DNA of 38,600 nucleotides from Candidatus Zixiibacteriota bacterium (GTDB taxonomy: Bacteria; Zixibacteria; MSB-5A5; GN15; FEB-12): the NCBI GenBank assembly GCA_024276275.1, contig JAJRXM010000053.1:1-38600 (forward strand), read 5' to 3'. The notes below the pieces were generated by a model that made no database searches, was not told where the DNA came from, and saw only the letters and a program-made list of their open reading frames with translations. A program made the translations under genes and the position numbers. This document shows positions 27,364-29,448 of the stretch, one piece after another. Every line of letters begins with the position of its first letter. Position 1 is the first letter of the stretch.

Positions 27364-27450
27364 TGTAGGGTTCAGGCCTGCCTGAACCTAATATTTGTAG
27401 TGACAAGTTATTGCCCTGTCATAAGAGGAACAGGCAGGCCAGTTCCCTAC
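27364..27450. repeat. 87-bp compound repeat, copy A
   Basis: It comprises three palindromic blocks: GGTTCAGG-CCTG-CCTGAACC, a GTGACA...TGTCA block, and GGAACAGGC...GCCAGTTCC, ending CCCTAC. It is 84/87 identical, in the same orientation and with no gaps, to copy B at 29251-29337. The two enclose the tRNA-bearing islet. Confidence 0.9.
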
Positions 27451-27500
27451 ACTACCAACCACAATATTATTGCTATACTACATTCGATATCATATCAACA

Positions 27501-27527: not shown

Positions 27528-27637
27528 TAAATGGGTTCGTTTCTCATATAAAGGGAACCTACTTTTCTAGTTTTTCTCATTATTGTCAAGATAATTTAGT
27601 CTCACACAGTGAGTTACAGTAAAATGGCTTTGCTTGA

Positions 27638-27659
27638 AAAAATGGCTTAAGCCATTTTT
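27638..27659. terminator. AAAAATGGCTT-AAGCCATTTTT palindrome (terminator-like)
   Basis: A perfect 22-bp inverted repeat with A5/T5 ends, able to act on either strand. No gene ends within 300 bases on either side, so what it would terminate is unclear. It could be a remnant of a lost gene. Confidence 0.35.
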
Positions 27660-27861
27660 GATAATATTAACTGTAGTCTTTTTGTATGGCATATTTTTCT
27701 CCATTTAGTAAAGGGTGGAAGTTGTAATATAGGTTGAATATGTAGGTTTTTTGTTAGGGGGTAAGCAAAAAGCACCATTTAAGATAAATAAATGCAACTT
27801 TACTATCAATAAGCCAGTTAACCCCCTTATAGAAAAAAGTTAAATATTTACAAGAAACTTC

Positions 27862-27895: not shown

Positions 27896-28324
27896 ATGAG
27901 CAATAAATATGAACACATTAAATTGATAATCAAAGAAATTCAAGATGAAATTCTTGAAACTGAAGAACGGTTAAAAGTCTTAAATAATGACTTAAATCAT
28001 ATGAATAGTATGGCATTACGTCATGCCTCGCAGGTTAGCCTAAATTTGGATGTAGATTCAGTTGCACATCCAAGATTTAGGTTTAAGGGAGTTAATCTGA
28101 GAAATACAATTCTTACGATATTAAAAGATCGTGAAGGTCAAAAAGTTAAAGCAAGACAAATTTTAAAAATTGCTTTGGACGGTGGCTATGAGACAAGTTC
28201 GAATAATTTTGAATCAGCTATTTATGGCATGATAGGTCGCTTGATAAAAGATAAGCAAATTGTTAAAACTGGAGCCGGGGAATACATGTACCCTAAAACA
28301 GGAGCAGTAGCCCCTTGGCTTTAA
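27896..28324 (+). CDS. Coiled-coil plus winged-helix DNA-binding-like protein
   Basis: A 142-residue protein. The first 45 residues form a heptad-like helix (IKEIQDEILETEERLKVLNND). From about residue 60 a winged-helix-like domain follows: LRNTILTILKDREGQKVKARQILKIAL, a second helix with SNNFESAIYGMIGRLI, and a wing (KTGAGEYMYP). Such domains occur in HARE-HTH-like and restriction-associated DNA-binding proteins. Here it stands alone in the islet between the 87-bp repeats. A dimeric DNA-binding role is inferred. The target is unknown. Confidence 0.72.
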   Translation: MSNKYEHIKLIIKEIQDEILETEERLKVLNNDLNHMNSMALRHASQVSLNLDVDSVAHPRFRFKGVNLRNTILTILKDREGQKVKARQILKIALDGGYETSSNNFESAIYGMIGRLIKDKQIVKTGAGEYMYPKTGAVAPWL

Positions 28325-28331
28325 AAGAAAA

Positions 28332-28355
28332 AGACACTCGCTGTAACGAGTGTCT
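28332..28355. repeat. Hairpin cassette, copy 1
   Basis: AGACACTCG and CGAGTGTCT pair over 9 bp around CTGTAA, preceded by an A-rich run and followed by CAAATT. It is the likely 3' end of the winged-helix transcript, but no T-run follows. A related cassette lies at 28654-28686, just before the tRNA. Confidence 0.6.
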
Positions 28356-28653
28356 CAAATTCACCGTTTCCCACTATCGCTTAAACAGAAAGAAACCTTG
28401 TGATGTTTATAAGATATAATACATTTAAACCCTTGTCAAGACTTATGTTGCACGGTTTTGTCTCTCGTCGTAAGCTTATTAATTGTAACAGCTTATGTCC
28501 TCAGCATCTCAAAATATGCAAAATGGTAAAAATACCGTATAGAGATATGTCAAGTAGAGCTGTTTATGGAGGGGACAGCTATCTGTTCAGGCTATTAGTA
28601 GGAGGTTCTCTTTCCAAAACAAGAGGAATAGAAAAATGTGTATAATATGGTAT
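28356..28653. other. 298-bp gap without a supported gene
   Basis: The short frames here lack ribosome binding sites. An AGCTGT...ACAGCT hairpin near 28558-28580 exposes GGAGGGG in its loop, and a GGTAAAAATACC hairpin lies near 28523. A good -10 (TATAAT, 28641-28646) lies about 50 bases before the tRNA. A short structured RNA is possible but not demonstrated. Confidence 0.4.
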
Positions 28654-28686
28654 AAAAAAGACTCGACCTGTAGCCGAGTCTCAAAT
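28654..28686. repeat. Hairpin cassette, copy 2, upstream of the tRNA
   Basis: A6, then AGACTCG pairing with CGAGTCT around ACCTGTAGC, then CAAAT. It shares its A-run, CTGTA loop and TCAAAT tail with copy 1, 322 bases upstream. It ends eight bases before the tRNA, so it could be the tRNA leader or its processing signal. Confidence 0.6.
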
Positions 28687-28694
28687 CTTAAAAT

Positions 28695-28781
28695 GGAAGC
28701 GTTGTTTAGTGGTTTAAAACAGCGGTCTTATAAACCGCCGATGCCGTCCCGCATCCGAGGGTTCAAATCCCTCCGCTTCCG
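28695..28781 (+). tRNA. Class II tRNA, serine-type body with UAU anticodon
   Basis: All arms pair fully: acceptor GGAAGCG/CGCTTCC (28695-28701), D arm GTTT-AGTGGTTTA-AAAC, anticodon arm GCGGT-CTTATAA-ACCGC with anticodon TAT at 28729-28731, long variable arm GATGC-CGTCCC-GCATC, T arm GAGGG-TTCAAAT-CCCTC, and discriminator G (28781). The long arm and G73 fit tRNA-Ser, as does the AGTGGTTTAA...GCGGTCTT..AAACCGC body. Yet UAU would read the isoleucine codon AUA, which this genome uses for Ile in conserved proteins. The 3' CCA is not encoded. Charged by SerRS it would misread AUA, so it may be a non-standard tRNA or a decayed copy, although the intact stems argue against decay. Confidence 0.85.
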
Positions 28782-28948
28782 TTTAATAATTATAATGGAT
28801 TATCGGCTTTTTAGCAAGATAATTTAATGGAGCAGAAAGGTTGTATGTTTCTCCTTAATAGTAGAAAGTAGTTAGCATATGAATATTTGGACAGGAATTT
28901 TTACAAATCCTCGGGAATGGGGAAATAAAATTGAAAGGAGGAGCTGTT

Positions 28949-29059
28949 ATGCCTTGTAAAAAAGTTACAAGAACAGAGCGGACTGGTAAAAAACCAGGAC
29001 CGAAAACAGTTCCGGTGAAAGGTCATAAAAGATCTACACCGAAACCGTGTAAGAAATAG
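28949..29059 (+). CDS. 36-residue basic peptide with flanking cysteines
   Basis: A very strong ribosome binding site (GAAAGGAGGAG, about seven bases from the ATG) precedes a 36-codon frame. The product is highly basic, with Lys and Arg throughout, KKPGPKTVPVKGHKRSTPKP in the second half, and Cys at position 3 and near the end (PCKK at both ends). It has no hydrophobic stretch. The composition suits nucleic-acid binding or a ribosome-associated peptide. I recall short basic proteins with a 'GPK.V.V..HKRS.P' core but cannot place them in a family. It lies 168 bases after the tRNA within the 87-bp-repeat islet. Confidence 0.65.
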   Translation: MPCKKVTRTERTGKKPGPKTVPVKGHKRSTPKPCKK

Positions 29060-29250: not shown

Positions 29251-29337
29251 TGTAGGGTTCAGGCCTGCCTGAACCTAATATTTGTAGTGACAGGGTATTG
29301 CCCTGTCATAAGAGGAACAGGCAGCCCAGTTCCCTAC
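29251..29337. repeat. 87-bp compound repeat, copy B
   Basis: Same orientation and length as copy A (27364-27450), with three mismatches. Copies A and B frame 1.8 kb containing the winged-helix gene, the hairpin cassettes, the tRNA and the small peptide. Confidence 0.9.
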
Positions 29338-29448
29338 AAAAACAACGAGAAACGAGCTAGTTCATTTAAAAATTATAAACTTATATATATTGTGTTCGTG
29401 TAACTATTTTAGTATCAATCAAGACGCGTAAAACAGGAAGATAGTAAG

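Follow-up and report, generated by a model that had tools for sequence, protein, structure and literature searches.

A serine-type tRNA gene with the anticodon UAU in a variable cassette of a Candidatus Zixiibacteriota genome, and its possible role as a guarded toxin

Class II tRNAs that carry serine identity together with a non-serine anticodon have been described as allo-tRNAs, and UAU is among the commonest of these anticodons (Mukai et al. 2017, reviewed in PMC7609411). Some of them insert serine in Escherichia coli regardless of the anticodon, while one UAU allo-tRNA pseudogene, which overlaps a transposon-related open reading frame, is reported to be inactive in this host (PMC7609411). 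In nematodes, nev-tRNA-Ile(UAU) is misacylated in vitro with an amino acid other than isoleucine and is scarce in cells (PMC4300185). In CreTA modules (type VIII toxin-antitoxin RNA pairs), by definition, a toxic RNA lies in a cas operon of a clustered regularly interspaced short palindromic repeats (CRISPR) system, together with degenerate repeats and a spacer that partly matches the promoter of the toxic RNA; one known CreT hits AUA decoding by sequestering tRNA-Ile(CAU) (PMC8501985, PMC9458426). We describe here a serine-type tRNA gene with the anticodon UAU in a stretch of 38,600 nucleotides (the window), which is the entire contig JAJRXM010000053.1 of a draft genome of a Candidatus Zixiibacteriota bacterium (3.39 Mb, 95% complete, with 38 tRNA genes detected). 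At a probability that we place at roughly 45%, this gene would encode a normally silent, serine-charged RNA toxin that mistranslates AUA within an addiction or defence module.

The gene is an intact tRNA gene. ARAGORN calls it at 28694-28782 on the forward strand with the anticodon TAT, and the Rfam model RF00005 matches 28695-28781 on the same strand with 60.7 bits (gathering threshold 29, E 7e-11). Folded as a cloverleaf it reaches -33.2 kcal/mol, compared with a mean of -19.6 for shuffled sequences (z -4.6), and none of 200 shuffles was as good. It is a 7/5 class II tRNA with all seven acceptor pairs, a T-stem of five pairs and the discriminator G73. Every stem and invariant position is intact, and CCA is not encoded. 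The anticodon loop CTTATAA occupies 28727-28733, with UAU at 28729-28731. An earlier note, made from the letters alone, had proposed a class II fold with a long variable arm, G73 and intact stems, and had read UAU in this loop. The fold is borne out by ARAGORN, Rfam, the folding energy and a table of tRNA features, and the anticodon by ARAGORN and the sequence itself. The serine-type UAU tRNA can also be considered a real type because it was found independently in other bacteria (see below).

Bacterial serine identity resides in G1-C72, G2-C71, G73 and the variable arm, with no use of the anticodon (PMC9976931), in agreement with the statement in the earlier note that seryl-tRNA synthetase (SerRS) reads the body. 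All of these determinants, including a long variable arm, are present: the acceptor stem begins G1-C72, G2-C71, A3-U70 and A4-U69 (R4-Y69), with G73. The anticodon is not that of a serine tRNA. The variable stem is flanked by one unpaired base on each side, which matches the serine tRNAs of the genome and not its leucine tRNAs. When compared with the other tRNAs of its own genome, as had been proposed, it is closest to Ser(UGA) (alignment score 31.0); the other serine tRNAs score 16.5-18, tyrosine 18, leucine 6-10.5 and Ile2 11. The serine-like body first suspected is thus upheld by its nearest relative and by the signals in the acceptor. In E. coli, C11-G24 is a further serine signal, and U11-A24 occupies this position here. 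The features of an AUA-reading tRNA-Ile, whose discriminator is A73, are absent (class II instead of a short variable loop, G73, A4-U69 instead of C4-G69 and G29-C41 instead of C29-G41). So are those of leucine tRNAs and nev-tRNA (C2-G71, A73 and two unpaired bases after the variable arm), the corresponding features being G2-C71, G73 and one unpaired base. A leucine, tyrosine or isoleucine body, which the earlier note had named as what would refute its reading, is ruled out by features and scores together. Charging with serine is therefore likely: the best match in the genome is Ser(UGA), the serine determinants are kept and the isoleucine discriminator is missing. As SerRS ignores the anticodon, it would be expected to charge this tRNA. 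Only one match to the SerRS N-terminal domain was found in the whole genome, and a dedicated second SerRS was discarded.

AUA occurs 26.7 times per 1000 codons in 27 open reading frames of the window. At 311 aligned positions it faces isoleucine 210 times, valine 41 times and leucine 27 times, and serine is outside the eight commonest residues. This supports the assumption, already made in the note, that AUA means isoleucine here. The genome contains a tRNA-Ile2(CAU), as read from sequence (L001), and clearly contains TilS. Reassignment of AUA to serine is ruled out by the alignments and because tRNA-Ile2(CAU) with TilS already serves this codon; the presence of both also rules out that the UAU tRNA is needed to read it. 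With AUA an ordinary isoleucine codon, a freely expressed serine tRNA with this anticodon should be harmful.

The gene is not conserved in the clade. The same class II UAU arrangement was not found in other genomes of the order (80 searched) or of the phylum (132 searched, including its own), so that the search of relatives, also proposed earlier, yielded no counterpart in the other 131 phylum genomes. The only other pattern match in the phylum (L045, in genome G022) is not a tRNA according to ARAGORN; the same holds for several other pattern matches of the scans. Between a kpsF-like gene and the conserved gene that follows it, congeners G002 and G003 carry unrelated sequence. In this interval congener G001 has a tRNA-like RNA that scores 44.5 bits and has lost the D-loop GG; the 3' flank behind it resembles that of the window. 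A gene present in one of 132 genomes, at a site empty of tRNA in two of three congeners and behind a poor sense promoter (7/12 for the best within 60 nucleotides upstream, when many of the genome's own tRNAs have 9-12), could be a chance variant, in which a tRNA-Ser gained by duplication or import has mutated to UAU, has little expression and is heading for loss. We consider this improbable, given that the stems are intact, that the linked genes recur with tRNA-like RNAs and that several counterparts elsewhere adjoin defence genes.

To find these counterparts, 85,000 species genomes were scanned for class II tRNAs that combine UAU with the D-loop AGTGG, and the matches were passed to ARAGORN; a further scan covered 396 genomes of Acidobacteriota (L388, L394 and L395). 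About ten other serine-type UAU tRNAs are present in unrelated bacteria. When the neighbouring genes were checked against PADLOC and Pfam, most of these tRNAs proved to lie beside defence or mobile genes on the same strand. Two adjoin cas genes: in L159 the tRNA is 92 nucleotides before Cas3 (5e-80), with Cas6 upstream (1e-69), and in L155 it lies between Cas3g (3e-251) and Csx17 (1e-231), 35 nucleotides before the latter, all on the same strand. In L111 it is 160 nucleotides behind GajB (3e-90) and GajA (8e-156) of a Gabija system, and in L128 it is 8 nucleotides behind an OLD-TOPRIM protein and 185 nucleotides before a C5 methylase, again on the same strand. The L103 tRNA lies behind an open frame of 230 amino acids and, on the same strand, 86 nucleotides before an IS1-like transposase; phylum genome G031 has one of this kind too. 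In L394 a hairpin is followed by an allo-tRNA-like, 9/3 serine-type UAU tRNA with G73 (about 1471-1561), which ARAGORN missed; the gene upstream shares 32% identity with the L103 gene and has a weak match to DUF5343 (4.5e-5, under the curated cut-off). The L395 tRNA is near other odd tRNAs, and no defence gene was found among the neighbours of L157. A full GGA(R) acceptor with G73 is kept in 8 of the 12 tabulated tRNAs.

The earlier note had foreseen wide insertion of serine at AUA unless the tRNA is not charged, is modified or has a non-translational role, and had argued from the intact stems against a dead copy. Its premises, a serine body and AUA read as isoleucine, stand, but constant mistranslation and a dead copy are both disfavoured by this scattered, defence- and mobile-linked set, which favours a conditional, possibly toxic element.

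Some counterparts belong to phages. L388 lies beside a prophage terminase gene on the same strand, L109 is in phage-like DNA, and L327 is in viral or prophage DNA beside a tRNA-Ser. The presence of serine-type UAU tRNAs in such DNA (L327, L388), and of relatives of a small basic protein of the window in phage contigs, one of them in a tRNA cluster, would also suit translation cargo derived from a phage, where the tRNA once aided the reading of AUA or stood in for a tRNA that a host defence had cleaved. This is very unlikely in our view: a serine-charged tRNA is of no help in reading AUA as isoleucine, and the common viral UAU tRNAs have A73 and encode CCA, unlike the tRNA of the window.

This common viral type is a different class II UAU tRNA, seen in viral contigs L189-L302 (for example, L241, L218 and L263), L389 and L390, with the variable-arm loop CAGATTAG, and it appears to be a phage family of tRNA-Ile(UAU) that is widespread.

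A CreTA-like arrangement is present on contig L380, to which L159 belongs. Here cas6 is followed by a promoter, a hairpin, the tRNA, a repeat-like sequence, a spacer-like sequence, a second repeat-like sequence, cas3, cas8, cas7 and cas5; cas4 lies farther on. The first 12 nucleotides of the spacer-like stretch, together with the last base of the repeat, form an exact match of 13 nucleotides to a site 97 nucleotides upstream of the tRNA that abuts the TTGACA box of its promoter. We calculate that chance alone would give about 0.01 such matches in the searched stretch. L380 therefore combines the cas neighbours, degenerate repeats and promoter-matching spacer of a CreTA module, a combination that the window does not have. 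No spacer-like match was found in L155, though its tRNA sits between cas genes. We found no tRNA-like CreT described in the open literature, of which only a part was covered.

A possible course of events, built from these sequence features, is as follows. A copy of a host tRNA-Ser would have switched its anticodon to UAU and would now be carried in a small variable cassette. On expression, SerRS would charge it with serine, and its U34, pairing perfectly with AUA, would outcompete the scarce lysidine-bearing tRNA-Ile2. Serine would then enter proteins at AUA and poison translation. Silence would normally be kept by the upstream 142-amino-acid protein (probably DNA-binding), by antisense transcription from the promoter-like site at the 3' end, or by both, and the linked antitoxin would differ from locus to locus. 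More tentatively still, tRNA-Ser genes with UAU, that of the window included, may have been recruited many times as AUA-mistranslating toxins guarding CRISPR, Gabija and mobile cassettes, with differing antitoxins (a CRISPR guide, a DUF5343-like or winged-helix-like protein, or an antisense RNA).

Metagenomes have yielded serine tRNAs with wrong anticodons, for which no role is agreed. The link to cas operons, Gabija and transposases, together with one CreTA-like case, offers a testable one, that of a mistranslating tRNA as a guarded toxin. If true, it would add tRNAs themselves to the toxin RNAs and account for the preference for UAU, because the only tRNA that reads AUA is scarce and specially modified.

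Several points weigh against a toxin. The window copy has no recognised CRISPR or cas gene nearby and no CreA-like match around it, and CRISPR-guided repression was therefore rejected for this locus. The acceptor stems of L111, L128 and L157 are damaged, and the defence-linked counterparts are few and were picked by one exact DNA pattern that sought UAU only. The antisense promoter at the 3' end of the tRNA is suggestive only: it scores 10/12, and control tRNAs show such sites often enough (2 of 35 at that level or above). The 142-amino-acid protein and its counterpart in G001 have no sequence similarity. Lastly, the tRNA-like RNAs of the related cassettes of the phylum (G001, G031 and G032) have lost the serine features. 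They may be decayed or work otherwise, and a function shared with the window may thus not need decoding.

Such RNAs keep the acceptor and T-arm and lose the D-loop GG, the normal anticodon arm or G73. This would be expected if the element were a tRNA-like RNA with a structural rather than a decoding role in a mobile or phage-derived cassette (a substrate of RNase P or SerRS, a decoy or a transposition signal), of which the window holds the least decayed copy and in which the anticodon is incidental. The same kind of IS1-like transposase in G031 and L103, and the UAU allo-tRNA reported to be transposon-linked and inactive in E. coli (PMC7609411), point in the same direction. Nevertheless, the tRNA of the window is fully intact, most of the distant UAU copies keep full serine identity, and an incidental anticodon is not expected to recur as UAU, though the scans sought UAU only. 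We regard the structural explanation as rather unlikely.

The cassette of the window (Table 1) consists of a gene for a coiled-coil/winged-helix-like protein, a hairpin, the tRNA and a tiny basic gene. The lack of a -35 box at normal spacing suggests that the sense promoter is weak or activator-dependent. The hairpin directly 5' of the tRNA is also found in G001, G032, L103, L155 and L159, and promoter-like sites pointing back into the tRNA in G001, G031 and the distant L103. The second minus-strand unit possibly gives a small RNA of about 75 nucleotides that converges on the upstream gene. A gene on the minus strand only was set aside despite the promoter and terminator there; the tRNA sequence signals lie on the plus strand, and for this reason minus-strand RNA is treated as antisense.

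Table 1. Features of the tRNA cassette in the window
Feature	Coordinates	Strand	Basis or remark
142-amino-acid protein with a long N-terminal helix and a probable C-terminal winged helix; candidate regulator/antitoxin	27896-28324	+	Homologs, predicted structure
Second minus-strand unit, from TTGACA-17-TATCTT (28439-28411) to terminator (28356-28331)	28331-28439	-	Sequence; similar layout in G001 and G032
TATAAT -10-like box, 5' of hairpin and tRNA	28641-28646	+	Sequence; no -35 box at normal spacing
Hairpin upstream of tRNA; on the minus strand, with T-run, a good intrinsic terminator	28658-28682		Terminator scan
Class II tRNA, serine-type body, anticodon UAU, G73	28695-28781	+	ARAGORN, Rfam 60.7 bits, fold z -4.6, tRNA feature table
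Promoter-like site TTGCTA-17-TATAAT pointing back into tRNA	28789-28817	-	Antisense RNA would end at hairpin 28658-28682
36-amino-acid basic protein MPCKKVTRTERTGKKPGPKTVPVKGHKRSTPKPCKK	28949-29059	+	Partner in G031 (58% identical) lies beside tRNA-like RNAs

Among 129 genomes searched, homologs of the 142-amino-acid protein were found only in G031 and G032. Both carry, on the same strand and within 600 nucleotides of the homolog, a tRNA-like helix (7-bp acceptor, 5-bp T-stem and TTCRA loop), as much as which is given by 4 of 2000 shuffles (about 0.2%) in each. The protein has no Pfam, NCBIfam or PADLOC family match and no homolog in a scan of viral contigs. Its AlphaFold model, made without an alignment (predicted local distance difference test 59.5), indicates topology only and is too weak for a structure search. 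G031 also has a homolog of the 36-amino-acid protein, two tRNA-like RNAs and the IS1-like transposase, and other relatives of this small protein come from viral contigs, one of them from within a tRNA cluster of a phage.

Phage contigs L371, L372 and L373 carry, near position 2500, a family of small basic proteins (KPGPKTVxVKxHKR); in one case it sits in a tRNA cluster, and in one a long-range stem seems to enclose it. A small protein with the motif GRLGGLKGGKARA lies upstream of both the G031 and L103 cassettes (L364, 2115-2390, minus strand; L381, upstream of the DUF5343-like gene). The cassette of the window is flanked by near-identical direct repeats TGTAGGGTTCAGGCC...CCCTACA at 27366-27455 and 29254-29343, which are possible recombination ends. 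A non-coding repeat at 27529-27702 (157-174 bp), which has copies of about 77% identity elsewhere in the genome, on other contigs, and in congeners, resembles a miniature inverted-repeat transposable element or a repeated RNA. Contig C97 of the same genome (L366, 4678-4856, minus strand) carries an odd class I tRNA with the anticodon UAG and A33, which adjoins a second tRNA-like element with weak matches to YrlA and tRNA-Sec. This pair is upstream of a slipin/SPFH-like gene (by reading) and a NADAR-looking gene, perhaps a locus of the RNA-repair type.

Among known systems, the nematode nev-tRNA-Ile(UAU) is likewise a class II UAU tRNA alongside a normal AUA-reading tRNA (PMC4300185), but it has leucine identity, is eukaryotic and has no mobile or defence cassette. 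The tRNA-ProX/ProRSx pair (PMC11415595) also involves a bacterial tRNA whose body and anticodon disagree, with natural mistranslation; it differs in that it concerns proline and a class I tRNA and has a devoted synthetase, whereas a single SerRS gene was found in the present genome. The tRNA of the window shares with the allo-tRNAs their serine identity elements and a non-serine anticodon, in this case UAU. It departs from them in the acceptor domain of 12 bp, which is split 8/4 or 9/3 in allo-tRNAs and 7/5 here, although L394 combines a 9/3 split with UAU. The archaeal CreT RNAs sequester a rare tRNA by means of a mini-ORF (open reading frame), whereas here the RNA itself is a tRNA, and the window copy has no CRISPR link; L380, in contrast, has the CreTA layout with a serine tRNA(UAU) in the place of the toxin.
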